In this document: one piece after another, positions 4,025 to 43,632 of the stretch
How the letters are laid out: the number at the start of each line of letters is the position of its first letter
Position numbering within the stretch: position 1 is the stretch's first letter
Assembly (NCBI GenBank): GCA_902793285.1
Contig: CADBCV010000007.1
Location: forward strand, 1 to 48,347
Reading direction: 5' to 3'
Length of the DNA: 48,347 nt
From: Oscillospiraceae bacterium
GTDB taxonomy: Bacteria > Bacillota > Clostridia > Oscillospirales > Oscillospiraceae
Translations under genes and position numbers: made by a program
Notes under the pieces: generated by a model
Database searches by the model: none
Told to the model about the DNA's origin: nothing
The model's input: only the letters and a program-made list of their open reading frames with translations

Positions 4025-7000
4025 TTACTTCCCGGCGAGCGCCTGATACTCCGCGTAGCGCCGCGCGGTGAAGTCCTCGGCCTCCTTGAAGAGGATCTCG
4101 GCCCGCTCGGGGAAGGTGCGGGTCAGGGAGGAGAAGCGCACCTCGCCCATCATGAACTCGCGCAGCTTGCCGTTGGGCTCCTTGCTGTCGAGCACGAAGG
4201 GGTTCTTGCCGAGGGCCTTGTTCTCGGGGATGTAGCGCCAGAGCGGCCAGTAGCCGCACTCCACGGCGAGCTTCTGCTCGTTCTGGGACTTGCCCATGCC
4301 GTTGGAGAGCCCGTGGTTGATGCAGGGGGCGTAGGCGATGACGAGGGACGGACCCTTGTGGGCCTCGGCCTCCTTCAGGGCGGTGATGAGCTGGGCGGGG
4401 TTTGCTCCCATGGCGACCTGGGCGACATAGACGTTGCCGTAGGCCATGGCGATGCGGCCCAGATCCTTCTTCGCGGTCTCCTTGCCGGCGTTGGCAAACT
4501 GTGCCACCGCGCCGATGGAGGTGGCCTTGGAGGCCTGCCCGCCGGTGTTGGAATAGACCTCGGTATCCACGACGACGATGTTCACGTCCGTGCCGGAGGC
4601 CAGCACGTGGTCGAGTCCGCCGTAGCCGATGTCGTAGGCCCAGCCGTCGCCGCCGTACATCCACATGCTCTTCTTGACAAGGGCGTCCGTGCGGTCTTTC
4701 AGGAACTGCACGTCGGCGGAGGAATCCGCTGTCTTCGCGAGGGCTTCCTTGAGCGCCTCGGACACTTTGCGGGTCTCGGCGGGATCGTCGCCCCGCTCGA
4801 GCCACGCGCCGAGCGCCGCTTTGAGCGCCGCGTCCGCGGTGGCGGCCATGGCACTCTCGGCGTGGGCCTTGGCCTGGCGCCGCATCTGATCGACGGACAG
4901 GCACATGCCGAGCGAGTATTCGGCGTTGTTTTCAAAGAGGGAGTTCGAGGGCGCGGGGCCGAAGCCCTTCGCGGTCTTCGCGTAGGGGAAGGTGGGCGTG
5001 GAGGAGCCGACCACATAGGTGCAGCCCGTAGCGTCCGCAATGTACATGCGCTCGCCGAAGAGCTGGGTCATGAGCTTCATGTAGGGCGCCTCGCCGCAGC
5101 CGGCGCAGGAGCCGTTGAACTCGTAGAGCGGCCGCTCGTACTGGCTGCCGCGGGTGGAGAACTTGTCCATGGGGTTTTCCTTCACGGGCAGGCTCACAAG
5201 GTAGTCCCAGTTGGGCTGCTCGTGCATCTGGCTCTCGAGCGGCTCCATGACAAGGGCCTTCTCCTTCGCGGGGCAGACATTTGCGCAGGATGCGCAGCCC
5301 TGGCAGTCGATGGGGTCTACCTGGATGCGGTAGGTGTATGCCTCAAAGCCCTTGCCGACTGCCTTCTTTGTGACCATGCCCTCGGGCGCGGCGGCCTTCT
5401 CCGCCTCGGTCACGAGGAAGGGGCGCACGCAGGCATGGGGACACACGAGCGAGCACATGTTGCAGCCGATGCAGTTCTCGGGGACCCAGCGGGGGACGTT
5501 CGTCGCGATGCCGCGCCGCTCGTACTTGGAGGTCTCCACCGGGCTCACGCCGTCGGCATAGGGCATGAAGCTCGACACGGGGATGCGGTCGCCCTTCTGG
5601 TTGTTGACCGGGATCTGGATCTCGCGGATGTAGGCAGGCAGGCTTTCGTCCACGGCCTCCTCCTCGTCCCGGAGATCACGCCAGGCCGCGGGGACCTCGA
5701 TCTTCTTCACGGCGGCAAGGCCCGCGTCCACGGCGGCGCAGTTCATGCTGACGATCTTGTCGCCCTTCTTGGAATAGGTCTTCACGATGGCCTGCTTCAT
5801 GTAGTCCACGGCGTCCTCGATGGGCAGCACGCCCGAGAGTTTGAAGAAGGCAGACTGCAAAACGGTGTTCGTCCGGTTGCCGAGACCGATCTGCTGGGCG
5901 ATGTCGGTCGCGTCGATGGTGTAGAAGTTCAGGCCGCGCTCGGCGATGATGCGCTTGGCCCGGTTCGGCAGATGCTCCTCGAGCCCCGCCATGTCCCAGT
6001 CGGTGTTCAGCAGGAAGGTGCCGCCGGGCTTGATCTCGCTCACAATGTCGAAGCTCTTCATGTAGCTCTGCTTGTGGCAGGCCACGAAATCCGCCATCGT
6101 GACATAGTAGGTGGAGCGGATCGGCTCGTGCCCGAAGCGCAGGTGGCTCTTCGTGACGCCGCCGGACTTCTTGGAGTCATATTCAAAATACGCCTGGGCG
6201 TACTGGTCGGTGTTGTCGCCGATGATCTTGATGGAGTTCTTGTTCGCGCCCACGGTCCCGTCGGAGCCGAGACCCCAGAACTTGCAGGAGATGATGGATT
6301 TGCCGGCGGTGACGATGTTCTCGCCCACGGGCAGGGAGGTAAAGGTCACATCGTCGTTGATGCCGACGGTGAAGTGGTTTTTCTTTTCGCCCTGCATGTT
6401 GTCGAACACGGCCTTGATGTGGGCGGGGATCGTGTCCTTGGAGCTCAGGCCGTAGCGCCCGCCGAGGATCGTGACCTTGCGGTCAGACTCGGAGAACGCG
6501 GTGCACACATCGGCAAAGAGCGGCTCGCCCGCGCTGCCGGGCTCCTTCGTGCGGTCGAGGACGCTGATGACGCGCGCGCTCTCCGGGATCGCGGCGAGCA
6601 GATGCTTTACCGAGAAGGGGCGGAAGAGGTGCACCTGCACCATGCCGACCTTCTCGCCCCGGGCGGTGAGATAGTCCACTACCTCGCGCATGGTCTCGCA
6701 GACGGAGCCCATCGCGACGATGACGCGCTCGGCGTCCGGCGCGCCAAAGTAGTTGAAGAGTTTGTAGTCGCGCCCGGTGAGGGCGTTGATGGCGTCCATC
6801 TTCTCCTGCACGATCCCGGGCAGGGCGTCATAGGTGCTGTTGCAGGCTTCGCGGGACTGGAAGAAGGTGTCGGGGTTCTGGAGGGTCGAGCGGATGGTCG
6901 GGTGCTCGGAGTTCAGGGCGTGGTCCTTGAAGGCGCGGACCTTGTCCCAGTCCACGAGCTTCGCCAGATCGTCATAGTCCAGCACGTCGATCTTCTGGAT

Positions 7001-7534
7001 CTCATGGCTCGTGCGGAAGCCGTCGAAGAAGTGCTGGAAGGGGACGGAGCCCTTGATGGCGCTCAGATGGGCGACAGCGGCGAGATCCATGCACTCCTGC
7101 ACGCTCGCGGAGGCGAGCTGGGCAAAGCCGGTCTGACGGCAGGCCATCACGTCGGAGTGGTCGCCGAAGATGGAGATGGAGTGGGTGCCGACGGTGCGCG
7201 CCGCGACATGCATCACGCCCGGCAGCAGCGAGCCCGCAATGCGGTACATGGGCGGGATCATCAGCATCAGGCCCTGGGACGCGGTATAGGTCGTGGCAAG
7301 GGAGCCGGTCTCCAGCGCGCCGTGCATGGCGCCGCAGGCGCCGGCCTCGCTCTGCAGCTCCACAAGCTGCACCGGCTGACCGAAGAGATTTTTCTTTCCG
7401 TGGGCCGCCCAGTTGTCCACATGGTCCGCCATGGGGCTCGAGGGCGTGATGGGGTAGATGGTCGCAAGCTCGGTAAAGGCATAGCTTGCGTAGGCGGCGG
7501 CTTCGTTGCCGTCCATGGTTTTCTTAATCAGCAT
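4025..7534 (-). CDS. nifJ: Pyruvate:ferredoxin (flavodoxin) oxidoreductase
   Basis: A single-chain PFOR of 1169 residues, the normal length. It oxidatively decarboxylates pyruvate with CoA to acetyl-CoA and CO2 and reduces ferredoxin, the central step of anaerobic fermentation, in the cytoplasm. Visible parts: N-terminal pyrimidine-binding TPP domain with YPITPSSPMADHVD (about 27-40); a bacterial-type 2x[4Fe-4S] domain with C688/C691/C694/C698 and C744/C747/C750/C754; CAGCGEAPY (about 810-818), ligands of the proximal cluster; and the TPP motif GDGWAYDIGYGG (962-973) through YSNTGGQ. The ATG at 7534 is chosen because AGGAGG sits just upstream; an in-frame ATG 18 bases earlier would overlap that site. 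It lies 64 bases after the ketopantoate-reductase-like gene, same strand, separated by a strong hairpin, so it may be only partly co-transcribed. Confidence 0.97.
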   Translation of the reverse strand: MLIKKTMDGNEAAAYASYAFTELATIYPITPSSPMADHVDNWAAHGKKNLFGQPVQLVELQSEAGACGAMHGALETGSLATTYTASQGLMLMIPPMYRIAGSLLPGVMHVAARTVGTHSISIFGDHSDVMACRQTGFAQLASASVQECMDLAAVAHLSAIKGSVPFQHFFDGFRTSHEIQKIDVLDYDDLAKLVDWDKVRAFKDHALNSEHPTIRSTLQNPDTFFQSREACNSTYDALPGIVQEKMDAINALTGRDYKLFNYFGAPDAERVIVAMGSVCETMREVVDYLTARGEKVGMVQVHLFRPFSVKHLLAAIPESARVISVLDRTKEPGSAGEPLFADVCTAFSESDRKVTILGGRYGLSSKDTIPAHIKAVFDNMQGEKKNHFTVGINDDVTFTSLPVGENIVTAGKSIISCKFWGLGSDGTVGANKNSIKIIGDNTDQYAQAYFEYDSKKSGGVTKSHLRFGHEPIRSTYYVTMADFVACHKQSYMKSFDIVSEIKPGGTFLLNTDWDMAGLEEHLPNRAKRIIAERGLNFYTIDATDIAQQIGLGNRTNTVLQSAFFKLSGVLPIEDAVDYMKQAIVKTYSKKGDKIVSMNCAAVDAGLAAVKKIEVPAAWRDLRDEEEAVDESLPAYIREIQIPVNNQKGDRIPVSSFMPYADGVSPVETSKYERRGIATNVPRWVPENCIGCNMCSLVCPHACVRPFLVTEAEKAAAPEGMVTKKAVGKGFEAYTYRIQVDPIDCQGCASCANVCPAKEKALVMEPLESQMHEQPNWDYLVSLPVKENPMDKFSTRGSQYERPLYEFNGSCAGCGEAPYMKLMTQLFGERMYIADATGCTYVVGSSTPTFPYAKTAKGFGPAPSNSLFENNAEYSLGMCLSVDQMRRQAKAHAESAMAATADAALKAALGAWLERGDDPAETRKVSEALKEALAKTADSSADVQFLKDRTDALVKKSMWMYGGDGWAYDIGYGGLDHVLASGTDVNIVVVDTEVYSNTGGQASKATSIGAVAQFANAGKETAKKDLGRIAMAYGNVYVAQVAMGANPAQLITALKEAEAHKGPSLVIAYAPCINHGLSNGMGKSQNEQKLAVECGYWPLWRYIPENKALGKNPFVLDSKEPNGKLREFMMGEVRFSSLTRTFPERAEILFKEAEDFTARRYAEYQALAGK

Positions 7535-7554
7535 GACTGCCTCCTCATACATTT

Positions 7555-7598: not shown

Positions 7599-8555
7599 TT
7601 ATTTCAGATACTGCTTGTCGTAATTGGCCTGGATCGCCTTGACCATGACGGTCAGCAGGTCGTTGACCGGCGTGGGGATGCCGAACTGACGCCCGTACTC
7701 GGAGAGCTTGCCGTTGAGCACGTCGATCTCGGTCTGGCGGTGGTTGATGAGCATGTCCTGGGCCATGGAGGGGTAGTAGTCGCCCATGTTGTCGATGAAG
7801 TTTTTCAGGTGCGTATTCTCAAACTCCACCGCGTCGAAGGGCACGCCCTTGGCAGTTGCAATGGCGCAGGCCTCGCGCACGACGCCGCGGAAGAGCTCCA
7901 TGCCGTTGGGGTCCTCCGCCACCTCGATGATCTTCAGGCGCAGCACCGCGCACACGGTATTGACGGTGCAGTTGATGATGACCTTTTTCCAGATGTTGGG
8001 GCGGTCATCCCGGTTGAACTCCGCAAGGCAGCCGCCTTTGGTGAAGACCTCGGCGAGGTGCGCGCCGGCCTTGTCGGTGACGGGGCCGTTTTCCAGCGCG
8101 CCGAAGTGGACCAGCGTGCCCTTGACCTCGGTGGACACGCAGCAGCCGGGCTCGCGCAGCTCGGTGCCGAGCGCGCCGGAGCCGCAGAGGATGCGGTTGG
8201 CCGGAAAGTGCTTGAGCAGGATGTCGTCGTTGCCGAGCCCGTTGATGAGGGAGACGACCACGGTGTCGGGCCCAATGCAGGGCATGGCGCTCTCCACGGC
8301 CTTGTCGAGCTGGGTGGCCTTCGTGACGAAGATCACGATGTCCATGATGCCGATGTTGTCTGCGGAGTAGGCGGTCTTGAAGCCGTCGAGGTGGTAGTGG
8401 GTGTTGGGGTAGATGATGAACTCCAGCCCGTCCTTTGCGACCTTGTCCATGTGGGCCTTGTACATGTCCACGAGCGTGATGTCGGCCCCGCCCTTGCGGA
8501 GGTAGCCTGCAAAGCAGCTTCCGGCTGCGCCGCAGCCGATCATGGCGATTTTCAT
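7599..8555 (-). CDS. Ketopantoate reductase (PanE/ApbA) family oxidoreductase
   Basis: A 318-residue cytoplasmic NAD(P)H-dependent reductase. The Rossmann GxGxxG is at the start (GCGAAG, residues 7-12), and the C-terminal helical domain carries KKVIINCTVN, which holds the family's catalytic lysine region. The family reduces 2-dehydropantoate to pantoate, but many members act on other 2-oxo acids. The ATG at 8555 has AAAGGAAG upstream; a start 33 bases earlier lacks a site. It lies 3' of an IlvD-type dehydratase and two transketolase genes. True pantothenate synthesis would fit beside ilvD, but no other pantothenate or branched-chain genes are near, so a role in reducing a 2-oxo acid made by the dehydratase is an equally good inference. 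Confidence 0.85.
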   Translation of the reverse strand: MKIAMIGCGAAGSCFAGYLRKGGADITLVDMYKAHMDKVAKDGLEFIIYPNTHYHLDGFKTAYSADNIGIMDIVIFVTKATQLDKAVESAMPCIGPDTVVVSLINGLGNDDILLKHFPANRILCGSGALGTELREPGCCVSTEVKGTLVHFGALENGPVTDKAGAHLAEVFTKGGCLAEFNRDDRPNIWKKVIINCTVNTVCAVLRLKIIEVAEDPNGMELFRGVVREACAIATAKGVPFDAVEFENTHLKNFIDNMGDYYPSMAQDMLINHRQTEIDVLNGKLSEYGRQFGIPTPVNDLLTVMVKAIQANYDKQYLK

Positions 8556-8640
8556 AGGGTTATTCTTCCTTTCATTTATAATCAGCAATATGCAGAAGTC
8601 TCGGACAGAAAGCCCGCCGTGCGCGATAAGCGCGAGTCCT

Positions 8641-8667
8641 CGTTTGCAAAACAGAGTTTTGCAAACG
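8641..8667. terminator. Hairpin at the 3' end of the dehydratase gene
   Basis: CGTTTGCAAAA (8641-8651) pairs with TTTTGCAAACG (8657-8667), an 11-bp stem with a 5-base loop, directly after the stop codon of the dehydratase on the minus strand. There is no separate T-tail, so it may attenuate or protect the 3' end rather than terminate fully. Confidence 0.45.
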
Positions 8668-8669
8668 AA

Positions 8670-10358
8670 TCAATCGAACGCGCCCTCGGCGTACTGGGTG
8701 GTGACGGCGCCGCTCGCCGCGGAGGAGACGGTCTTGCAGTATTTGACGAGATAGCCGGACTTGACCTTCAGCGGCGGCTGCTTCCAGGCGGCGATGCGCG
8801 ACTCGATGGTCTTCTCGTCCACGTTCAGGTTAATGCTGCGGTTCGGGATATCGACGGTGATGGTGTCCCCGTCCTCAATGACGGCGAACACGCCGCCCTC
8901 CATGGCCTCCGGCGAGACGTGGCCGATGGCGGCGCCGCGGGTCGCCCCGGAGAAGCGCCCGTCTGTCAGCAGGGACACGGTCTCGCCCAGGCCGCGGCCC
9001 ACGATGGCCGCCGTGGGGGAGAGCATCTCGCGCATACCGGGGCCGCCCTTGGGCCCTTCGCACTTGATGACCACCATGTCGCCCGGGACGATGTCGCCGC
9101 GGAGGATGGCCTGGGTCGCGTCTTCCATATAATAGAACACGCGGGCGCGGCCGGTGTGCTTCATCATCTGCTCGCACACGGCGGCGGCCTTGACCACGCA
9201 GCCCTGCGGGGCGAGGTTTCCGAACAGCACCGCGAGACCGCCCTGCGGGCTGTAGGGGTCCTCGACGGAGCGGATCACGCTGTAGTCCTTGACATTGTGG
9301 CCGGGCAGCAGCTCGCCGATCGTCCTGCCCGCGACGGTGAGACAGTCGGTGTGGATGAAGCCCTTGCGGTTCAGTTCCTGCATGACGGCGTAAATGCCGC
9401 CGGCCCTGTAGAGATCGTCCATGTGGTGGTGGCCGTTGGGACTGATGTGGCAGAGGTTCGGCGTGGTCTTGCTGATCTCGTCAAACTTCTGCAGAGGGAG
9501 CCGGAGCCCGAGCTCGTTTGCGATGGCGGGCAGGTGGAGCGTCGTGTTGGTGGAGCCCGCGATGGCCATGTCGACGCGGATGGCGTTTTCAAAGGCTTTC
9601 TCGGTCAGGATGGCGCGGGGGCGCGTGTCGGTCTTCACGAGATCGACCACGCGCATACCGGCGCGCTTTGCCAAGGCCAGGCGCTCCCCGTAATAGCTGG
9701 GGATGGTGCCGTTGCCGGGCAGGGCCATGCCGAGCGCCTCGGCCAGACAGTTCATGGAGTTTGCCGTGAACATGCCCGAACAGCTCCCGCAGCCGGGGCA
9801 GCAGTGCTGGGTCAGCTCCTCCTGCTCCTCCTCGGTCATCTCCCCGGCGTGGACCTTGCCGACGGTCTCGATGCAGGCGGAGTAGTCCGACACGTCGCCG
9901 CGGTAATGGCCGGTGGGCATAGGGCCGCCGGAGACGACGATGGAGGGGATGTTCATGCGCGCGGCGGCCATGATGGCACCGGGCACGGTCTTGTCGCAGG
10001 AGACGACGAGCACCAGACCGTCAAGCCCGTGGGCCATGGTCATGCTCTCGATGCTGTCGGCGATGAGCTCGCGGCTCGGCAGGGGGTACATCATGCCCTT
10101 GTGGGCCATGGTGATGCCGTCGCAGATGGCGATGGCGGGAAATTCCACCGGCACGCCGCCGGCCATCAGGACGCCCTGCTTGGCGGCGTCGGCAATGCCG
10201 CGCAGATGGAAGTGGCCCGGGACGATCTCATTGAACGTGTTGACAACGCCAATGAGCGGCTTGCGGCCGATGTTCTCCTGCAGGTGCCCCGTGGCGTAGA
10301 GGAGGCTGCGGGCGTCGGCGTGCTCGACGCCGGCAAAGATTTTTTCGGATTTCAGCAT
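8670..10358 (-). CDS. IlvD/Edd family dehydratase
   Basis: A 562-residue iron-sulfur dehydratase, typical length. It removes water from a 2,3-dihydroxy acid to give a 2-oxo acid: dihydroxy-acid dehydratase (branched-chain amino acids) or a sugar-acid dehydratase. Family motifs are intact: C121 in CDKTVPG, and the [16 protein letters not shown] block with C193. The first cysteine found in some IlvD proteins is replaced by PGHFHL (about 47-52), as in the subgroup common in clostridia and archaea. The ATG at 10358 follows GAGGTGAT. It starts 27 bases after the transketolase pair and is clearly in that operon. Together with a TRAP transporter and GntR regulator across the divergent promoter, this suggests a catabolic sugar-acid substrate; classical ilvD cannot be excluded from sequence alone. 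Confidence 0.9.
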
Positions 10359-10385
10359 AGTATCACCTCAAAATGTGTTTGCCGC

Positions 10386-11321
10386 TTATTCTCTCGCGGC
10401 CTTGGCGGTGTTCACGATGTCCTGCACGGAAAGGCCGTAGGCGTCGAGCAGCTCGCTCGCCTTGCCGCTGCGGGGGTACACGTCCCGGAGGCCCATGCGC
10501 AAAACCTTGCAGGGGTGGAAGTGGCAGGCGGCCTCGCAGATGGCGCTGGACATGCCGCCGTAGATGTTGTGGTCCTCAACGGCGACAGCGCAGTTTGTGC
10601 GCCGGAGCACCGCGGCGACCCCCTCGGTATCCAGGGGCTTGACGGTGGAAACGTCCACCAGCACGCCGTTCACGCCCTCTTCGTGGAGCCGGTCGAGCGC
10701 GGCGATGGCCCTGTCCATGATAAAGCCGGAGGCGAAGATGGCCACATCGTCGCCGTAGCTTTTGACCTCGCGGATCTTGCCGAAGGCGTAGGGCGTCCCC
10801 TCGGGGAAGACCTCGGGCTCGCGCCCGCTGCCGAGACGCAGATACGCGGGCCCTTCAAGCTGCATCATGGCTTTCGCGGCCTCGTAGGCTTGCTGCGCGT
10901 CGGCCGGGGTCAGGATCTTGACGCCGGGCATACTGCGCAGGATGCCGATGTCCTCATAGAACTGGTGCGTGACGCCCTCGCGCTCGCCGCCGAGCATCCC
11001 GCCGTTGAGACCGATCAGCTTCACGTTGAGACCCGGGTAGGCCACAAAGGTGCGGATCATCTCGCAGGCGCGCATGGTCAGAAAGCCGGCGTAGGAGACG
11101 ACGACGGGCTTCATGCCGGTGGTGGCCATGCCGGCGGCGATGTCCACGGCGTCCTGTTCGGCGATGCCGACTTCAATGACGCGGTCGGGGAACTCCTCGC
11201 GGAACTTGGTTGCGCGCGCGGCGGCCACCGCGTCAGGGGAAATGATGACGATTTTGTCATCCTCGCGCGCCAGCTCCTGAATGGCGCGCATGGCGGCTTC
11301 TCTTGTGCTCTTGGTAGCCAT
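10386..11321 (-). CDS. Transketolase, C-terminal (pyrimidine-binding) subunit
   Basis: A 311-residue protein matching the C-terminal half of transketolase (pyrimidine-binding domain plus transketolase C domain). EVGIAEQDAVDIAAGMA carries the conserved glutamate that activates TPP (around residue 54). It needs the partner encoded immediately upstream. The ATG at 11321 is preceded by GAGAGGTG; a GTG three codons earlier falls inside that site. Only 12 bases separate it from the stop of the N-terminal subunit gene. Split transketolases transfer a two-carbon ketol group; some act in the pentose phosphate pathway, others in dedicated sugar routes such as apulose-4-phosphate cleavage (AptAB). Which applies is not decidable from sequence alone. 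Confidence 0.92.
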   Translation of the reverse strand: MATKSTREAAMRAIQELAREDDKIVIISPDAVAAARATKFREEFPDRVIEVGIAEQDAVDIAAGMATTGMKPVVVSYAGFLTMRACEMIRTFVAYPGLNVKLIGLNGGMLGGEREGVTHQFYEDIGILRSMPGVKILTPADAQQAYEAAKAMMQLEGPAYLRLGSGREPEVFPEGTPYAFGKIREVKSYGDDVAIFASGFIMDRAIAALDRLHEEGVNGVLVDVSTVKPLDTEGVAAVLRRTNCAVAVEDHNIYGGMSSAICEAACHFHPCKVLRMGLRDVYPRSGKASELLDAYGLSVQDIVNTAKAARE

Positions 11322-11333
11322 AGCGTTCACCTC

Positions 11334-12152
11334 TCAAATTTTGTCCTTGAGCGCCTCGCGGGCGATGGCGACTTCCTCGTCCGTGGGAACTCTCTTGTGC
11401 CAGGCGTTGTTATCTTCCATATAGGGGATGTTCTTGCCCTTGACGGTGCGGCAGGCGATGAGGGAGGGCTTGTCCGTCACCTTCTTCGCCTCGGCGATGG
11501 CCGCGCGGATCTGGCCGATGTCGTGCCCGTCGATCTCCTGCACGTGCCAGTGGAAGGCCTTCCATTTGTCGGGCACGGGGTAGAGGGAACTGAGCTCCGT
11601 CACCTTGCCGCCGGACTGGTGGTTGTTCAGATCGGCAAAGACGATCAGGTTTCCGGCCTCAAACTTCGCGGCGGCCATGGCGGCCTCCCAGATGATGCCC
11701 TCCTCCTCCTCGCCGTCGCCGACGATGACGTAGACGAAGTTGTCGATCCCCTGCATTTTGCAGCCCCGGCTCATGCCAAGGCCGATGGCGACGCCGTTTC
11801 CGAGCGAGCCGGACACGGTGTCCACGCCGGGGATCTTGTTCATATCGGGGTGGCCCTGCAGGAAGGAGCCGAGACTGCGCAGGCCCTTCAGCTCCTCCAG
11901 CGGGAAGTAGCCCTTACGGGCAAGCGCGGCGTAGAGGATGGGGCAGGCGTGCCCCTTGGAGAGGACGAAGCGGTCGCGCTCCGGCCAGCGGGGGTTCTGG
12001 GGGTCGAGCTTCATTTCATCAAAAAACAGAACCGCCATGATATCCGCGATGGACATGCAGGGACCGGGGTGGCCGTCCCCCGCGTCATGGACGGTTTCCA
12101 CCACATCCAGGCGCAGGCGGTTGGCAATACGGGAAAGTTCTTCATTTGTCAT
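11334..12152 (-). CDS. Transketolase, N-terminal (TPP/diphosphate-binding) subunit
   Basis: A 272-residue partner of the following gene. The TPP/Mg-binding motif is GDGEEEEG (145-152) with LNNHQ at about 176-180, and GDGHPGPCMS (26-35) and SKGHACP (65-71) are transketolase active-site blocks. It is the first gene of a leftward operon: tkt-N, tkt-C, dehydratase, ketopantoate-reductase-like, possibly nifJ. The ATG at 12152 has GGAGGTG ten bases upstream. A sigma-A promoter and a putative operator lie in the 5' region. Having a transketolase under a divergent GntR regulator and next to a TRAP system argues for an inducible role instead of housekeeping. Confidence 0.92.
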   Translation of the reverse strand: MTNEELSRIANRLRLDVVETVHDAGDGHPGPCMSIADIMAVLFFDEMKLDPQNPRWPERDRFVLSKGHACPILYAALARKGYFPLEELKGLRSLGSFLQGHPDMNKIPGVDTVSGSLGNGVAIGLGMSRGCKMQGIDNFVYVIVGDGEEEEGIIWEAAMAAAKFEAGNLIVFADLNNHQSGGKVTELSSLYPVPDKWKAFHWHVQEIDGHDIGQIRAAIAEAKKVTDKPSLIACRTVKGKNIPYMEDNNAWHKRVPTDEEVAIAREALKDKI

Positions 12153-12178
12153 GGGGAATAGACACCTCCAAACATAAA

Positions 12179-12194
12179 TATCCTATGTAGGACG
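12179..12194. promoter_or_regulatory. Putative GntR operator, site 1
   Basis: TATCCTATGTAGGACG contains the inverted repeat TCCTA-TG-TAGGA. It lies just downstream of the leftward -10 box, where a bound repressor would block transcription. A 13-of-16 match occurs at 13368-13383 in the same position relative to the other arm's promoter. Assignment to the GntR protein is inference. Confidence 0.5.
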
Positions 12195-12203
12195 TTTAAC
12201 CTG

Positions 12204-12232
12204 ATATTAACCGCGAATTGAACTTTTGTAAA
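12204..12232 (-). promoter_or_regulatory. Sigma-A promoter of the transketolase operon
   Basis: On the minus strand TTTACA (12227-12232), 17 bases, TAATAT (12204-12209). This places the start of transcription near 12197, about 45 bases before the first start codon and adjacent to operator site 1. Confidence 0.65.
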
Positions 12233-12318
12233 GCGGAAGTCAGCGCTTTTCTTGAATTTTGTAGGAGTGCATATTTTTAATGCCTGAAATTGTACAGTTT
12301 TTACGAGAGGTTCGGGAC

Positions 12319-12347
12319 TTGACAGGCTTTCACACCAAAATTATAAT
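12319..12347 (+). promoter_or_regulatory. Consensus sigma-A promoter of the gntR gene
   Basis: TTGACA (12319-12324), a 17-base spacer and TATAAT (12342-12347), both perfect consensus hexamers, about 35 bases before the gntR start. A TGTAGGA half-site (12260-12266) lies upstream. A strong, apparently unregulated promoter for the regulator. Confidence 0.8.
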
Positions 12348-12381
12348 ATCTTGGTTATGAAAGAGAAAGCAGGTGGCGCGT

Positions 12382-13104
12382 ATGAATGAAAGGCCGCAGT
12401 TGAATTATTTCCCTCTCCGCAGCGTCTCCGTGGTGGATGCCGTCAAGGACTGGATCCTGGAGCAGATGATCGAGGGAAAGCTGCGCCCCGGCAGCAAGCT
12501 GCCCACCGAGGCGGAGCTCTGCGCCCAACTCGGGGCGAGCCGCAACAGCATCCGGGAGGCGATCAAGCAGCTTGAGGCTTACGGCGTGCTCTATATCAAG
12601 CGGGCGGAGGGTACCTTCGTCACCGATCACTATGAGCCGAAAATGCTCTCCCCGGTGCTGTACAGCATCATCCTGCAAAACAGCCGCTGGGAGGATTTTG
12701 TGGAGCTGCGCCGCGCGATCGATATCGGCACGCTCTATTCGCTCATCTCCCGCAGCCCGTCCGGGGAGCAGCTCATCCCCCTGCGCGAGGCGCTCGAGGA
12801 ACTTGAGCGCGCGGTCAGCGACGGGGCGGGCGATGTGCGGCGCATCACCGAGGCCGACTGCAGCTTTCATAACGTCATCACCGCGCTGACCGGCAATCCC
12901 CAGCTCATCACGCTCTCGGAGTATATCAACCGCATCACCGTGCCGAGCCGCATCAAAACCACCGAGATGGTCCTCGCCACCGGGCAGATCGACTCCTATG
13001 TCCGCCTGCACCGCCAGCTCTATGCCATCATCGAGACGGGCGACAAGTCCGCCGTCGAGCGCGCGGTCGTGGACCATTACGTCTTCTGGGAAAAAATGAA
13101 CTGA
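12382..13104 (+). CDS. GntR family transcriptional regulator, FadR/FCD subfamily
   Basis: A 240-residue DNA-binding regulator. The N-terminal winged helix-turn-helix (about 15-82) includes LPTEAELCAQLGASRNSIREAIKQLEAYGVL and the wing KRAEGTFV. The C-terminal all-helical FCD ligand-binding domain follows, with the usual Asp/His metal-site pattern (ADCSFHNVI, LHRQL, VVDHYVFW). FCD regulators typically respond to small organic or sugar acids and repress adjacent catabolic genes. The ATG at 12382 has AGGTGG five bases upstream; a GTG nine bases earlier is less likely. It sits between two divergent catabolic arms that share an operator-like sequence, so it is the likely local repressor. Confidence 0.93.
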   Translation: MNERPQLNYFPLRSVSVVDAVKDWILEQMIEGKLRPGSKLPTEAELCAQLGASRNSIREAIKQLEAYGVLYIKRAEGTFVTDHYEPKMLSPVLYSIILQNSRWEDFVELRRAIDIGTLYSLISRSPSGEQLIPLREALEELERAVSDGAGDVRRITEADCSFHNVITALTGNPQLITLSEYINRITVPSRIKTTEMVLATGQIDSYVRLHRQLYAIIETGDKSAVERAVVDHYVFWEKMN

Positions 13105-13162
13105 GCGAGACGTTGAGAAAATATGTACGTTTCCAATATGGCAAAACGTTTCAATATCTAAA

Positions 13163-13188
13163 AATGTACGGCGATTTCGCCGTACATT
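13163..13188 (+). terminator. AATGTACGG hairpin, copy 2; probable gntR terminator
   Basis: AATGTACGGCGA (13163-13174) and TCGCCGTACATT (13177-13188) form a 12-bp stem followed by GCTTTTT. It therefore works as an intrinsic terminator after gntR, but it is also a member of a dispersed repeat (copies at 3788 and 27773), with a degenerate GTAGGGG-type unit just downstream (13210-13230). Confidence 0.65.
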
Positions 13189-13323
13189 GCTTTTTATGGA
13201 CATCATGCGCTGCCGGGAGGGGCGCCGCGCAACAAAACGCCCCGCCGCCCGCAGCCGTTTTCCGGATAGTGGCTTTATTAACAATGTCCAATTTTCGGGC
13301 CTGAAAATTGGAAGATATCCCAA

Positions 13324-13352
13324 TTTACAACGGGATTGCGCCGTGATACCAT
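13324..13352 (+). promoter_or_regulatory. Probable promoter of the racemase-TRAP operon
   Basis: TTTACA (13324-13329), 17 bases, TACCAT (13347-13352); a moderate match to sigma-A. It sits about 60 bases before the first start codon and just upstream of operator site 2. Confidence 0.5.
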
Positions 13353-13367
13353 AATTTTGCAAGCAAA

Positions 13368-13383
13368 CATACTATGTTGGACG
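13368..13383. promoter_or_regulatory. Putative GntR operator, site 2
   Basis: CATACTATGTTGGACG matches site 1 (12179-12194) at 13 of 16 positions and lies at a similar distance downstream of a -10 box. The pair argues that both arms of the locus are co-regulated. Confidence 0.5.
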
Positions 13384-13413
13384 AAGATCCAAACCCTGAA
13401 TGGAGGCGTCGTT

Positions 13414-14085
13414 ATGAAAGTGGGTCTCATCTATACCAGCACCACGCCGGAGCTGATCGCCGATGTGGAGCGCGAGGTCAAAGGGCAGCTCGGCGCGGAG
13501 GTGGAGCTTTTCAGTCTCCAGGACCCCAGCATCCTGGCTGAGGTGCGCGAGGCCGGGTATGTGACCACGGCGCCCGCCGCGCGGCTCATCGGCATGTATA
13601 TGAAGGCCGCGGAAAACGGTGTGGACGCGATGCTGAACCTCTGCTCCTCCGTGGGCGAGGTGGCGGACGCCGCGCAGGACTGCGCGCGCTATATCGGCGT
13701 GCCCATCGTGCGCGTGGATGAGGAGATGTGCCGCGAGGCTGTGCGTCTCGGCAGGCGCGTCGGCGTCATGGCGACGCTCCCCACCACCCTGACCCCGACC
13801 AAGAACACGGTGGCCCGTGTGGCGCGGGAGATGGGCGCGCATGTGGAGCTCGTGGACTGCCTCGTCGATGGGGCCTTCGGCCTGGATCAGGAGCAGTTCA
13901 AAAAGCGCCTGACCGACGCCGCCGCGGAGATCATAGACAAGGTGGATGTGGTCGTCCTGGCCCAGGGCAGCATGGCCTATGCGGAGGAGCATCTGCGCGG
14001 GGTCTACGGCAAGCCCTTCCTCGGCAGCCCTCGCTTCGGCGCCGCCGCGCTGAAGGAGGCGCTCAAAGCCAAGGGCGTCCTGTAA
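13414..14085 (+). CDS. Asp/Glu/hydantoin racemase-fold protein
   Basis: A 223-residue cytoplasmic protein of the Asp/Glu racemase superfamily (PF01177-like). The first catalytic cysteine is kept (C77 in LNLCSSVGE), but the second, usually in a VxxxC position near the end, reads VVLAQGSMA with Q184. One-cysteine relatives do not perform two-base racemisation and include decarboxylases and isomerases, so 'racemase' should not be taken literally. The ATG at 13414 has GGAGG nine bases upstream; an in-frame start 78 bases earlier would overlap the promoter. It is the first gene of the rightward operon, 62 bases before dctP, implying it acts on the imported acid or its first product. Confidence 0.82.
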   Translation: MKVGLIYTSTTPELIADVEREVKGQLGAEVELFSLQDPSILAEVREAGYVTTAPAARLIGMYMKAAENGVDAMLNLCSSVGEVADAAQDCARYIGVPIVRVDEEMCREAVRLGRRVGVMATLPTTLTPTKNTVARVAREMGAHVELVDCLVDGAFGLDQEQFKKRLTDAAAEIIDKVDVVVLAQGSMAYAEEHLRGVYGKPFLGSPRFGAAALKEALKAKGVL

Positions 14086-14147
14086 TTTGTGAGTCGGCCC
14101 TCGGGGTGAGGGCAACAAATATTATTCAAAACGAAAGGAAGACAACA

Positions 14148-15149
14148 ATGAAAAAGATCTTAGCTCTGGTTCTGGTCCTGTCCATGGTTTTCGCCCTCGG
14201 CGCTTTCAGTGCGAGCGCTGACGACGCGATCGTCCTGAAAATCGGCGTCTCCACCGCAGAGACCGACCCCCGCAACATTGCCGCCCAGATGTTCGCCGAT
14301 GAGATCGCCGAGAAGACCAACGGCGCTGTCAAGGCCGAGGTGTACCCCTCCGGCCAGCTCGGCGGTGACGGTCAGCTTGTCGAGTCCCTCGCCATCAACG
14401 ACGGCACCGTGGACATCGTCATCACCGACGCCTCCAACTTTGGCACCATCGTCCCCGACATGAACATCTCCGGCCTGCCCTTCCTCTTCAGCGATTTCGA
14501 CGCGGCTTTCGCCTTCATGGAGAGCGATGTTGAGGCTGCCGCCGAGGCCGAGCTGCTCGACCTCACCGGCGTGCACGTCCTGACCCACTACAGCAACGGC
14601 TTCCGCTGCGTCACGAACTCCAAGGGCCCCGTGGAGACTCCTGCCGATATGAAGGGTATGCTCATCCGCACCCCCGAGAACCAGGTCATCATGGCCACCA
14701 TGAGCGCGCTCGGCGCAAACCCCCAGCCCCTCGCCTTCTCTGAGCTGTACCAGGCTCTCCAGCAGAAGACCTATGACGCCCAGGAGAACCCCATCCCCAT
14801 CATCTACAACAACAAGCTCTATGAGGTTCAGGAGTTCCTGTCCGTCACCAACCACATCTACTCCGGCCTGTGCTTCGCCATCTCCGGCAGCGCCTGGGAC
14901 AGCCTGACTGCCGAGCAGCAGGAGATCGTCCAGGCCGCCGCGAAGAGCTCCGGCGAGTGGCAGAGCGAGACCATCCGCCAGCAGACCAATGACCTCGTCG
15001 CGAACCTCGAGGCTGAGGGCATGAAGGTCAACTTCCCGGATCTTGCTCCCTTCTCCGCCGCCACCCAGTCCGTCATCGAGGAGAACGCCCTCGGCATTTC
15101 CGAGGATCTTCTGACCGCACTGGCCGAGATGAACAAGGAAGCCGCCTGA
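14148..15149 (+). CDS. dctP: TRAP transporter solute-binding protein, DctP family
   Basis: A 333-residue extracytoplasmic binding protein. The signal peptide (1-24) has a Lys start, a hydrophobic core and ASA before D25; there is no lipobox cysteine, so it is predicted to be released rather than lipid-anchored. The mature part shows the DctP fold, with LPFLFSDFDAAFAFME, GFRCVTNSKGPV and KGMLIRTPENQV; R174 fits the conserved arginine that binds the solute carboxylate, so an organic or sugar acid is expected. The ATG at 14148 has AAAGGAAG upstream. It is followed by several hairpins before dctQM, a layout that gives more binding protein than membrane subunits. Confidence 0.93.
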   Translation: MKKILALVLVLSMVFALGAFSASADDAIVLKIGVSTAETDPRNIAAQMFADEIAEKTNGAVKAEVYPSGQLGGDGQLVESLAINDGTVDIVITDASNFGTIVPDMNISGLPFLFSDFDAAFAFMESDVEAAAEAELLDLTGVHVLTHYSNGFRCVTNSKGPVETPADMKGMLIRTPENQVIMATMSALGANPQPLAFSELYQALQQKTYDAQENPIPIIYNNKLYEVQEFLSVTNHIYSGLCFAISGSAWDSLTAEQQEIVQAAAKSSGEWQSETIRQQTNDLVANLEAEGMKVNFPDLAPFSAATQSVIEENALGISEDLLTALAEMNKEAA

Positions 15150-15173
15150 TCGATCTGAGCGGAATCTGAACGG

Positions 15174-15207
15174 GGGAAGGCCCTTTTCCCAAGAAACGGG
15201 CCTTCCC
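15174..15207 (+). terminator. Attenuating hairpin after dctP
   Basis: GGGAAGGCCC (15174-15183) pairs with GGGCCTTCCC (15198-15207), loop 14 bases, and no strong T-run. It likely limits read-through into dctQM and protects the dctP mRNA 3' end. Confidence 0.6.
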
Positions 15208-15220
15208 TCATCCTGTAACG

Positions 15221-15338
15221 ATTACTATGGCAATTTGCCATAGTAATGTCGCCATGTTTTGCGGCTGCCGCGAAAGCGGCGAGCAAAACGGCATTTTTAA
15301 AAATGATTCATGCGGCAAGTTTTCATTACCGCATGAAT
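15221..15338. repeat. Series of three further inverted repeats between dctP and dctQ
   Basis: ATTACTATGGCAA with its complement TTGCCATAGTAAT spans 15221-15247 around a single T. GTTTTGC (15256-15262) with GCAAAAC (15283-15289) encloses GCCGC-GAAA-GCGGC. ATTCATGCGG (15306-15315) pairs with CCGCATGAAT (15329-15338). No reading frame is credible. The last hairpin ends about 18 bases before the dctQ start and could affect its translation. Confidence 0.65.
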
Positions 15339-15355
15339 ATATCGGAGTGATTGCC

Positions 15356-15916
15356 ATGCGAGAAAAATTGTATAAGATCCTCAAGCGCGTGCAGACCTGG
15401 ATCGACGGCATCACGACCGGCGTCGCCTCGGTTTTGATCGGCATCATGTTTGCCGTCATCATCGCAAACGTCGTGCTGCGCGCGATCCCCGCCGTCGGCG
15501 GTTTCCGCTGGTATATGGAGTTCAGCCAGTACGCCAATGTCTGGGCCATGCTGATCGGCGCCGCCGGAATCGCCGTGCAGGGGACAAACCTGCGCGTCGA
15601 AGCGGTCGACGCGCTGGCAAAGAAGATCCCCTACGGAGAGAAAATCTCCAAAATCATCGTGGACATCGCGCTCATCCTGTTTTATATCATGGTTTACCGC
15701 AGCGGGCGCGTGTTTGCCGCAAAGTCCATGATCATCAAGGTCTCCACCATGCCGCAGTTCAAGATGGGCCAGGTCTATCAGATCTTCCCGTACGCGGCGC
15801 TCCTCTGCCTCGTTGCGGCGGCGGTGCATCTGCTTGTTACCCTGCTCGAGCCGAAGGTCGAGAGCCCGATGGAGATCATCGCGCATGAGATGGAAGGAAA
15901 GGGGGAGACAGCATGA
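15356..15916 (+). CDS. dctQ: TRAP transporter small membrane subunit, DctQ family
   Basis: A 186-residue membrane protein with four predicted helices: about 20-42 (VASVLIGIMFAVIIANVVLR), 58-80, 98-118 and 143-165. This matches the DctQ subunit that supports DctM in sodium-driven uptake of organic acids. The ATG at 15356 has CGGAGTGA upstream; longer in-frame versions would start inside the hairpin region and lack a site. Its stop overlaps the dctM start (ATGA), implying translational coupling. Confidence 0.9.
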   Translation: MREKLYKILKRVQTWIDGITTGVASVLIGIMFAVIIANVVLRAIPAVGGFRWYMEFSQYANVWAMLIGAAGIAVQGTNLRVEAVDALAKKIPYGEKISKIIVDIALILFYIMVYRSGRVFAAKSMIIKVSTMPQFKMGQVYQIFPYAALLCLVAAAVHLLVTLLEPKVESPMEIIAHEMEGKGETA

Positions 15917-17196
15917 GTATGATCGCATGGCTTCTCGTCAGCTTTGCCGTGCTGATGCTCTTCGGCGTGCCCATCGGCGCGTCCCTGGGCCTGTCCGCGA
16001 TCGGCGGCATCCTGTTCATCAACGGCAGCACCGACATCATGACCATCACAAAGCGCATGTTTGAGGGCATGAACTCCTGGGCGCTGCTCGCCGTCCCTCT
16101 CTATACCTTCGCCGGCTATACCATGTCCAAGGGCGGCATTTCCTCCCGCCTGATGGATTTCTGCTATGCCATCGTCGGCCATATCTACGGCGGCCTTGCG
16201 CATGTGAACGTGCTGGCCTCCATGATCTTCGCGGGCATCTCGGGCTCTGCCGTTGCGGATACCGCGGGCGTGTCCGGCATGTTCATGCCCACCATGCTGA
16301 AAAAGGGCTACTCCAAGGAACTGACGGTCACCGTCACGGGCGTGAGCTCCACCGTCGGCATCATCATCCCGCCCTCCATCCCCATGGTGGTCATCGCGGG
16401 CATCTGCTCCATCTCCACCGGCAAGATGTTCCTCGGCGGCATCATCCCCGGCATTCTGATCGGCCTGTCGCAGATGGTCATCTCCTACATCTTTGCGAAG
16501 AAGGAGCATGTCGAGCCCGAACCCGGCCGCTTCCAGATGAAGGAGGTCTGGCGCACCTTTAAGGGGAGCTGGCCCGCCCTGCTGATGCCGGTCATCATCA
16601 TCGGCACCATCACCGCCGGCATCGTCTCGCCCACCGAGGCGGGCGCCATCGCCGTTGTGTACGGCCTCATCTGCGGCGGCATCGTCTACCGCGAGCTCAA
16701 GCTCTCCGACTTAAAGTTCTGCTTCACCGAGACCGTGCGCGTCTCCGCGCGCATCTTCCTCGTCATCGGCGCGGCGAAGCTCTACACCATCATGCTGACC
16801 ACCGCGGGCTTTGACAAGTGGCTCACCGGCGCGATGCTCGGCGTGAGCACGAATCCCACGGTCATCCTGCTGATGATCCTGCTGCTGTTCTTCATCGTGA
16901 CGATGTTTATGGAGTCCATCGCCGCCCTCACGCTCTTCATGCCCATCATCTTCCCCATCGCCATGAGCGTCGGCATCGACCCCATCGTCCTCGGCGTTCT
17001 GGTCACGGTCATGATCGGCGTCGGCCTCGTGACGCCGCCTGTCGGCATGTGCATCTATGTGGCCTGCGACATTATGAAGATCACCGTCGGCTCAACGCTC
17101 AAGTACCTCATCTGGTACATCCTCGGCACCTTCCTCGTTATCGGCATCCTCATCGCCTTCCCGCAGCTCATCACCGCCATGGGCGCCTTTGTGTGA
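15913..17196 (+). CDS. dctM: TRAP transporter large permease subunit, DctM family
   Basis: A 427-residue membrane protein of usual DctM length with about 11-13 hydrophobic helices. The N-terminal GVPIGASLGLSA, the central GVSSTVGIIIPPSIPMVV and the C-terminal VGLVTPPVGMCIYVACDI are characteristic of this ion-transporter superfamily. It forms the transport path with DctQ, fed by DctP. It overlaps dctQ by four bases and ends the operon; a terminator follows at 17300. The substrate is unknown; the neighbours point to a sugar acid or hydroxy acid. Confidence 0.93.
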   Translation: MSMIAWLLVSFAVLMLFGVPIGASLGLSAIGGILFINGSTDIMTITKRMFEGMNSWALLAVPLYTFAGYTMSKGGISSRLMDFCYAIVGHIYGGLAHVNVLASMIFAGISGSAVADTAGVSGMFMPTMLKKGYSKELTVTVTGVSSTVGIIIPPSIPMVVIAGICSISTGKMFLGGIIPGILIGLSQMVISYIFAKKEHVEPEPGRFQMKEVWRTFKGSWPALLMPVIIIGTITAGIVSPTEAGAIAVVYGLICGGIVYRELKLSDLKFCFTETVRVSARIFLVIGAAKLYTIMLTTAGFDKWLTGAMLGVSTNPTVILLMILLLFFIVTMFMESIAALTLFMPIIFPIAMSVGIDPIVLGVLVTVMIGVGLVTPPVGMCIYVACDIMKITVGSTLKYLIWYILGTFLVIGILIAFPQLITAMGAFV

Positions 17197-43457: not shown

Positions 43458-43464
43458 CAGGCTG

Positions 43465-43569
43465 TCTTCAGGGCAGGGTGTGATTCCCGACCGGCGGTAC
43501 AGTCCGCGAGCCGTTTGGCATGAACCGGTGCGATTCCGGTACCGACAGTAGAGTCTGGATGGAAGAAGA
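43465..43569 (+). ncRNA. FMN riboswitch (RFN element)
   Basis: The conserved blocks appear in order: TCTTCAGGGCAGGGTG (43465), GATTCCCGACCGGCGGTACA, TCCGCGAGCC, GAACCGGTGCGATTCCGGTA, CCGACAGTAGAGTCTGGATG and closing GGAAGAAGA (43561-43569), which pairs with the opening TCTTC. It binds FMN. A terminator follows, so FMN should switch transcription of ribU off. Confidence 0.95.
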
Positions 43570-43570
43570 T

Positions 43571-43632
43571 GTCCCCGTTTTTCGCGGGGGCTCCGTTCGA
43601 TGCCCGAAGAGGATTCTTCGGGTGTTTTTTGT
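43571..43632 (+). terminator. Riboswitch expression platform with terminator
   Basis: GTCCCCG/CGGGGGC (43571-43577 and 43584-43590) is followed by CCCGAAGA-GGAT-TCTTCGGG (43603-43622) and TGTTTTTTG. The second hairpin is a clear intrinsic terminator; its GAAGA/TCTTC sequence could alternatively pair with riboswitch P1 sequences. Confidence 0.8.

Follow-up and report, generated by a model that had tools for sequence, protein, structure and literature searches.

The D-apiose pathway shows that a split transketolase (the apulose-4-phosphate transketolase AptA/AptB; E. coli SE15 ECSF_RS02710/02715) can be dedicated to a branched plant-cell-wall sugar, and passages of PMC13001218 place AptAB in a cluster with an FGGY kinase and an ATP-binding cassette (ABC) transporter. 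Here we describe a locus on a 48,347-nucleotide stretch of an Oscillospiraceae bacterium (contig CADBCV010000007.1, assembly GCA_902793285.1; the whole stretch is called the window) that also has a split transketolase, with no kinase in the locus and a tripartite ATP-independent periplasmic (TRAP) transporter instead. Unlike AptAB, its transketolase pair is followed by a dehydratase and a reductase. On balance, and by a modest inclination, we read it as a regulon for the import and breakdown of aceric acid from rhamnogalacturonan II (RG-II), taken up as free acid released by other bacteria. We infer the substrate, the individual reactions and the sequence in which they run from gene content and gene neighborhoods.

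Other described systems resemble parts of this locus. In the IlvC-IlvD steps of branched-chain amino acid synthesis, too, an enzyme of the IlvD type dehydrates a 2,3-dihydroxy acid and yields a 2-oxo acid. In contrast to that pathway, no ketol-acid reductoisomerase (KARI) was found here; transketolase and a PanE-like reductase would supply the dihydroxy acid, and the context is catabolic. Four-carbon acid sugar pathways (OtnI/OtnK/OtnC; DUF1537) have likenesses in sister loci, where DUF1537 kinases occur and L085 adds enzymes for 3-oxo-tetronate, whereas no DUF1537 kinase was found in the window genome (G000, 79.5% complete in 57 contigs, the window being contig C7), and the window has transketolase instead. 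We know of no PF01177, IlvD or PanE counterpart in the sulfoquinovose transketolase/transaldolase pathway of Faecalicatena. That pathway (PMC11659671) applies transketolase chemistry to an unusual plant sugar in anaerobes, and three sister loci (L091, L092, L169) likewise pair transketolase with a transaldolase-like gene; its sugar is sulfonic, the window's carboxylic. The PF01177 protein of the locus shares its fold with arylmalonate decarboxylase (AMDase) and the Asp-Glu racemases, and some AMDases also have TRAP neighbors, as passages of PMC4996985 report; by the same source, AMDase keeps Cys188 and has Gly74, whereas in the window protein the first Cys is retained and the second is replaced by Gln. 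Finally, 12 sister loci share a class II aldolase, an acylating aldehyde dehydrogenase and PduL with the PVM-like bacterial microcompartment (BMC) of gut Firmicutes; the window is without such genes.

The locus consists of two divergent arms. Leftward run tktN, tktC, an IlvD/Edd-type dehydratase and a PanE-like reductase, separated by 12, 27 and 114 bases; rightward run gntR, the PF01177 gene (here called race) and a complete TRAP set of DctP (PF03480), DctQ (PF04290) and DctM (PF06808). Open reading frames (ORFs), Pfam and NCBIfam agree with the gene order, domains and gaps of a preliminary description of this DNA, which had also proposed that both arms form one regulon, that the TRAP system imports an acid, that the split transketolase belongs to the system and that the route is not a textbook one. 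Those proposals are supported, and the comparison of genome neighborhoods that it had called for found them conserved and the arms co-occurring. It had noted that the locus lacks a kinase, and no DUF1537 kinase was found in the incomplete genome either. The racemase and NifJ parts of its interpretation need revision, as described below, and it left the substrate unnamed, for which race neighborhoods elsewhere point to aceric acid.

To compare neighborhoods, contigs were scanned with race, and 54 loci (L numbers; genomes bear G numbers) were fetched, 53 of them with usable race matches (L093 was dropped). Most are named as Clostridia (Oscillospiraceae, Lachnospiraceae and similar), joined by a Treponema and a Candidatus Avisuccinivibrio. 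The PanE arm and race lie on one contig in 5/5 genomes showing both (the window, L042, L046, L053, L047), a pairing that exceeds chance. The two arms are adjacent in three of the five; in L053 and L047 they are separated by 5-7 kb, with a second TRAP set in between.

Side chain B of RG-II carries apiose, rhamnose and aceric acid in succession. Aceric acid is 3-C-carboxy-5-deoxy-L-xylose, according to a passage of PMC8218411, and passages of PMC5698469 identify the GH127 enzyme BT1003 as the aceric-acid hydrolase of RG-II depolymerisation. We scanned four GH127 genes from the comparison (L086, L047, L169, L076), and their sole NCBIfam match was NF049879, 'aceric acid hydrolase' (718-779 bits, under the curated cut-off weighed below). 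The best PDB match of the L086 enzyme is 5mqo, which we take to be BT1003. A GH127 gene with NF049879 as best match, at 699 bits or more, is present in 14/48 race-positive genomes (those of 48 of the 54 loci, with L054, L058, L080, L082, L090 and L093 left out), and none scores between 468 and 699 bits. Among 291 class control genomes, three have such a gene at 770 bits or more and none scores between 530 and 770, giving an enrichment of Fisher p 1e-10. Moreover, GH127 lies on the race contig at most 14 kb away in 13 of the 14 genomes (the exception is G438, with L081), and in six loci (L047, L076, L084, L086, L087, L088) it stands directly behind race, at 3-52 bases.

The three control genomes with GH127 differ in their neighborhoods. 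G595 has race-TIM-tktN-tktC-gntR-TAL-GH127 in one run, where TAL is the transaldolase-like gene. G697 has GH127-BKACE-DUF1537 with two GH106-like genes, one of them above the Pfam cut-off (PF17132), and a 92-residue ORF beside a masked stretch that to the eye alone resembles the final part of race and has no Pfam match. G639 has GH127 without race, tkt, BKACE or DUF1537 genes. Other glycosidases accompany the race loci as well: apiosidase (PF13204) occurs in L065, L072 and L089, all three also with GH127, and GH106 is above cut-off in L083, below it in L091 as in the other G697 gene, and represented by a GH106-like tblastn match in L066. TRAP genes of the window type and the glycosidase tend to exclude each other, since GH127 is found in 1/27 TRAP loci versus 12/26 others (p 3e-4), as expected if TRAP imports the free acid and ABC systems import glycosides. 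Separately, further glycosidase-like genes (weak GH106, GH2, GH15) lie at L091:752-6580 and L168:11365-13314, beside a transketolase-type cluster or its GH127; perhaps they serve other RG-II side-chain bonds.

In the pathway that we propose, DctPQM would import aceric acid, and the single-Cys PF01177 enzyme would convert the aldose to the ketose HOCH2-CO-C(OH)(COOH)-CHOH-CH3. The split transketolase would transfer the HOCH2-CO- unit to glyceraldehyde-3-P, giving xylulose-5-P and leaving 3-hydroxy-2-oxobutanoate, which the PanE-like enzyme would reduce to 2,3-dihydroxybutanoate, a substrate like those of dihydroxy-acid dehydratase (DHAD). Dehydration by the IlvD-type enzyme would then yield 2-oxobutanoate. 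Enzymes of the 2-oxoacid:ferredoxin oxidoreductase type can convert 2-oxobutanoate to propionyl-CoA, and the NifJ protein encoded next to the locus could take this 2-oxobutanoate.

The transketolase pair is well conserved within this setting. Its halves have the expected domains, the thiamine diphosphate (ThDP)-binding PF00456 in the N half and PF02779 with PF02780 in the C half, and in race loci, a Treponema included for tktN, they are 70-94% (tktN) and 75-88% (tktC) identical to the window pair. This identity is high even in L091, L092 and L169, although their race is only 48-49% identical. Six genomes preserve the arrangement gntR/tktN-tktC-ilvD. Identity falls to 41-48% (N) and 35-36% (C) for the other split transketolases of the genus, and the closest further pair encountered in the family, in G053, stands at 52% (N) and 47% (C). 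A search of 400 family genomes with tktN at 1e-90 returned five matches: besides the window itself, three were 87-89% identical, and G053 reached 52%. All 704 records from a plasmid search with tktN were below 60% identity. Membership in AptAB was considered and rejected, because the window pair is only 35% (N) and 31% (C) identical to AptA/AptB, below its identity to the genus's other split transketolases.

Most race loci have a different set of partners. With families assigned by Pfam and NCBIfam on representatives and by tblastn for the remaining loci, tktN and tktC occur in 10 of the 53 race loci and a DUF1537 kinase (or OtnK) or BKACE in 35; no locus combines the two sets, and eight lack both. 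Among the 38 loci with at least 5 kb on both sides of race, the counts are 8, 29, 0 and 1 (L055); the exclusion has p 2e-6, a nominal value since the loci are phylogenetically dependent. As they exclude each other, the two sets resemble alternative routes that branch from a single intermediate, and the ketose of aceric acid would suit both, being a beta-keto acid that would also act as a transketolase donor. For the kinase type we would expect dihydroxyacetone phosphate (DHAP), CO2 and acetaldehyde as products of phosphorylation, decarboxylation and aldol cleavage. These predicted steps suit 12 race loci of gut-type Firmicutes (L048, L049, L050, L051, L052, L056, L059, L060, L063, L064, L075, L089) in which genes for a class II aldolase, an acylating aldehyde dehydrogenase and PduL co-occur; one of them, L056, has a confirmed BMC shell domain. 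Passages of PMC8156839 name Hungatella hathewayi (here L089) and Faecalibacterium (L049) among taxa with PVM-like BMCs and expect a PVM-like substrate (rhamnose, fucose), a guess that may be wrong. In L085:7277-14365, from a Candidatus Avisuccinivibrio metagenome-assembled genome, a 3-oxo-tetronate kinase (545 bits against an NCBIfam cut-off of 350) and OtnC- and OtnI-like genes below their cut-offs (231 of 250 and 286 of 325 bits) stand in a row with race, TRAP and BKACE, the kinase beside race and BKACE; a C4 fragment of this kind is expected once keto-aceric acid loses acetaldehyde by retro-aldol cleavage. We tentatively suggest, with somewhat more doubt than confidence, that there are two unrelated solutions to aceric acid around one single-Cys PF01177 isomerase: the window's kinase-free transketolase/PanE/IlvD route to 2-oxobutanoate, its last two enzymes being of types from vitamin and amino acid synthesis, and a DUF1537/BKACE route to DHAP, CO2 and acetaldehyde, sometimes in a PVM-like microcompartment. 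A PDB search with one DUF1537 kinase at 1e-3 gave no match.

The preliminary description had called the PF01177 product a racemase-fold protein; that it is a racemase is unlikely given one catalytic Cys in 54/54 rows. Cys77 is present in every row of the alignment (the window and 53 loci), and the family's second catalytic Cys is Gln184 in all of them, so that the two Cys of a two-base Asp/Glu racemase are not present and that role was set aside as improbable. Motif comparison also rejected AMDase, which has Gly74 and Cys188, where race has Cys at the first place and Gln at the second. A decarboxylase role in the window variant was dropped as well, since PanE and IlvD would need an acid remaining after transketolase. 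Proton transfer by one base, as in aldose-ketose isomerisation, would fit a single Cys better than racemisation would. The AlphaFold2 model of race (pLDDT 94.6) has its closest folds in allantoin, hydantoin, Glu and Asp racemases and AMDase, and a PDB search with the sequence at 1e-3 gave no match. At 1e-10 race matched in 8 of 200 family genomes sampled, the best besides the window being 38% identical, and it occurs in 3/291 class genomes, G000 included, one of them at only 39% identity. We also observed a partial second race copy (about 105 aa) at L046:9409-9735, immediately before the full-length gene.

The dehydratase passes the TIGR00110 cut-off (Table 1), and G000 yielded no other PF00920 gene; no match was found in three congeners at 1e-50. 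No KARI (PF01450) was found in G000 or the three congeners, or in G402, G406, G407 and G413, the four other genomes carrying this dehydratase (of unstated completeness), in a search that detected KARI in 14/14 positive-control genomes. G402 has three PF00920 genes and the other three genomes one each, while G420, G446 and G595 have a separate IlvD at most 3 kb from KARI. A role in valine/isoleucine synthesis is unlikely because no KARI was found, although the dehydratase is the genome's only IlvD, and we dropped branched-chain DHAD as its assignment on this ground. The preliminary description had counted a sole dihydroxy-acid dehydratase as evidence against its idea; that is formally what G000 has, yet it does not overturn the idea when no KARI is found.

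The dehydratase is 57-59% identical to the best-matching family IlvD genes, the highest-identity group, which we define as DHAD-like, and at most 49% to the second-best group. A tree of 38 rows places the five window-type sequences in a clade of their own (100/100), whose nearest outside row is the DHAD-like L012. Across 29 DHAD-like rows, 44 invariant positions are changed in all five window-type sequences; C79, C121, C187, C190, C193 and C204, also invariant in DHAD-like rows, are kept. The dehydratases of L061 and L062 (100/100) join the DHAD-like clade (95/91). Independent recruitment of the two dehydratase types was considered and dropped, as a single origin is not rejected (p-AU 0.111). 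L061 and L062 combine this different IlvD (52%) with a 3-hydroxyacyl-CoA-dehydrogenase-like gene in PanE's place and a PF01261 TIM-barrel gene, a set consistent with reduction at C3 (3-oxo) instead of C2 (2-oxo). Orthologues of the window's PanE-like protein are 83-92% identical in L042, L046, L108 (the L053 contig) and L109/L167 (the L047 contig); the protein passes the general TIGR00745 model (Table 1) and reaches none of the narrower NCBIfam models among the matches listed.

Both arms likely form one regulon, to judge from related palindromes kept in relatives, and the GntR/FCD protein would control both. A palindrome of the TCCTATGTAGGA type precedes tktN in all six loci read that have gntR-tktN-tktC-ilvD (the window, L042, L046, L053, L167, and L110 with one mismatch). 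Sites before race have 2, 0, 3 and 2 mismatches to TCCTAYRTAGGA in the window, L042, L046 and L053, respectively, and L167 has no pre-race site at up to 3 mismatches. The window also has CGTCCWACATAG with 0 mismatches at 13372, before race. The case for a regulon comes from this conservation and not from counts in the window, where the first pattern at up to 2 mismatches was found 3 times against 3.83 expected, which is not above chance. Over nine loci, 12/20 sites at up to 2 mismatches fall within the 2% of bases that make up the 200 bases upstream of these genes, an enrichment flattered by the derivation of the motif from some of those same sites. Four loci outside the motif definition (L061, L062, L166, L169) have one site each, with 1 mismatch.

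Several observations weigh against aceric acid or against parts of the scheme. Neither G000 has such a GH127 nor the window locus any glycosidase, and for this reason we infer the window's substrate through orthologues (race, transketolase, TRAP). All GH127 matches, 699-793 bits and full-length, are below the NF049879 cut-off of 950. Just one genome of the unbiased class sample has race together with GH127 (3 and 3 of 291; p 0.03). The isomerase role of race is argued from its single Cys only, the linkage to NifJ is not conserved, and the tree placement of the dehydratase is not firm, its fork (83/80) being open and also holding four other dehydratases. The TIM and TAL genes of the L091/L092/L169 type are without a settled role, and L078:15638-16519 encodes a 2-hydroxy-3-oxopropionate (tartronate semialdehyde) reductase (406 bits; cut-off 397), behind BKACE in a locus without DUF1537, that the scheme does not predict. 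In addition, GH127 enzymes can have other specificities (passages of PMC5698469).

That last point, together with GH127 scores under the curated cut-off, leads to the rival we regard as unlikely yet worth taking seriously, that another, unnamed sugar acid is freed by GH127 enzymes of different specificity; the same passages of PMC5698469 mention GH127 homologues of a marine bacterium thought to have other substrates. The gap between the full-length GH127 matches and the next group (at most 468 bits in race-positive genomes and 530 in class controls) argues against it, as does co-linkage with apiosidase and GH106. We find it rather improbable that the cell imports an unbranched C3-C4 acid or the corresponding oxo compound (tetronates, tartronate semialdehyde), with race an isomerase or epimerase and transketolase splitting 3-oxo-tetronate to xylulose-5-P and glyoxylate. 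The Otn-type genes in the L085 race operon and the L078 reductase, whose family includes L-threonate dehydrogenase as well (188 bits against a cut-off of 350), fit this, and 3-oxo-tetronate suits kinase, BKACE and transketolase alike; it leaves the GH127/apiosidase/GH106 linkage and the IlvD and PanE of the transketolase arm unexplained.

Improbable to nearly the same degree, if slightly more so, is another branched acid, one linked with apiose (either D-apionate or 3-oxo-isoapionate). Apionate, as a dihydroxylated analogue of the usual IlvD substrate, would then be dehydrated by IlvD, and 3-oxo-isoapionate would go to transketolase. Split transketolases do act in D-apiose use (passages of PMC13001218), apiosidase lies near race in three loci, and DUF1537 includes a 3-oxo-isoapionate kinase (NF042436) that the L085 kinase matches weakly. 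However, aceric-type GH127 occurs in 13 race loci and accompanies all three apiosidases, the tkt pair is distant from AptA/AptB, and one common-type kinase scanned (L089) did not match the OiaK model. Very improbable indeed is that these are ordinary valine/isoleucine genes, a biosynthetic DHAD among chance neighbors: the TIGR00110 score and the lack of another PF00920 gene in the genome would agree, but the lack of a KARI match in all eight genomes, the gene order kept in 6 genomes and the 44 changed positions do not.

If aceric acid is indeed the substrate, the locus names concrete enzymes for its fate after release. The literature searched, with the founding RG-II and D-apiose papers outside that search, yielded, among the papers listed, no breakdown route for released aceric acid, and no paper joining it with transketolase; in papers that join it with aldolase, the passages on aceric acid that were covered contain nothing on its catabolism. 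RG-II is present across plants (PMC12168206), and its depolymerisation by gut Bacteroides has been described (passages of PMC12282258). The window type would then yield propionyl-CoA and the kinase type acetaldehyde, cross-feeding of TRAP-type scavengers without the glycosidase would be suggested, and the PVM-like microcompartment would have a different substrate.

Table 1. Features in and next to the proposed aceric-acid locus, with positions in the window.
Feature	Position	Strand	Basis
NifJ pyruvate:ferredoxin oxidoreductase	4025..7552	-	TIGR02176, 1807 bits
PanE/ApbA-like 2-oxo-acid reductase	7599..8555 (ATG start)	-	PF08546/PF02558; TIGR00745, 197 bits (cut-off 141)
IlvD/Edd-type dehydratase	8670..10358	-	PF00920/PF24877; TIGR00110, 749 bits (cut-off 618)
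tktC, split transketolase C-terminal subunit	10386..11321 (ATG start)	-	PF02779, PF02780
tktN, split transketolase N-terminal ThDP subunit	11334..12152	-	PF00456
Operator-like palindrome TCCTATGTAGGA upstream of tktN	12181..12192	.	Conserved copies in relatives
GntR/FCD regulator, proposed acid sensor	12373..13104	+	PF00392, PF07729
Second operator-like site TACTATGTTGGA upstream of race	13370..13381	.	2 mismatches to TCCTAYRTAGGA
race, PF01177 fold, single-Cys subfamily; proposed aceric-acid aldose-ketose isomerase	13414..14085	+	PF01177
DctP, TRAP solute-binding protein	14148..15149	+	PF03480
DctQ, TRAP small permease	15356..15916 (start is an internal ATG of the ORF)	+	PF04290
DctM, TRAP large permease	15913..17196	+	PF06808, TIGR00786

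The closest solved relatives of DctP are SiaP-type binders, and a fold search with its model (pLDDT 79) found nothing beyond the general SiaP/sugar-acid group. NifJ follows PanE by 46 bases in the window and was taken as a partner in the preliminary description; it stands behind PanE in the window only, and tblastn gave no match in the other mapped race loci. Between gntR and race lies an inverted repeat with a 12-base stem (13163-13188), perhaps a gntR terminator. At Rfam gathering scores, the sole match in the whole window was a flavin mononucleotide (FMN) riboswitch (RF00050, 108 bits), which lies far from the locus at 43460-43574.

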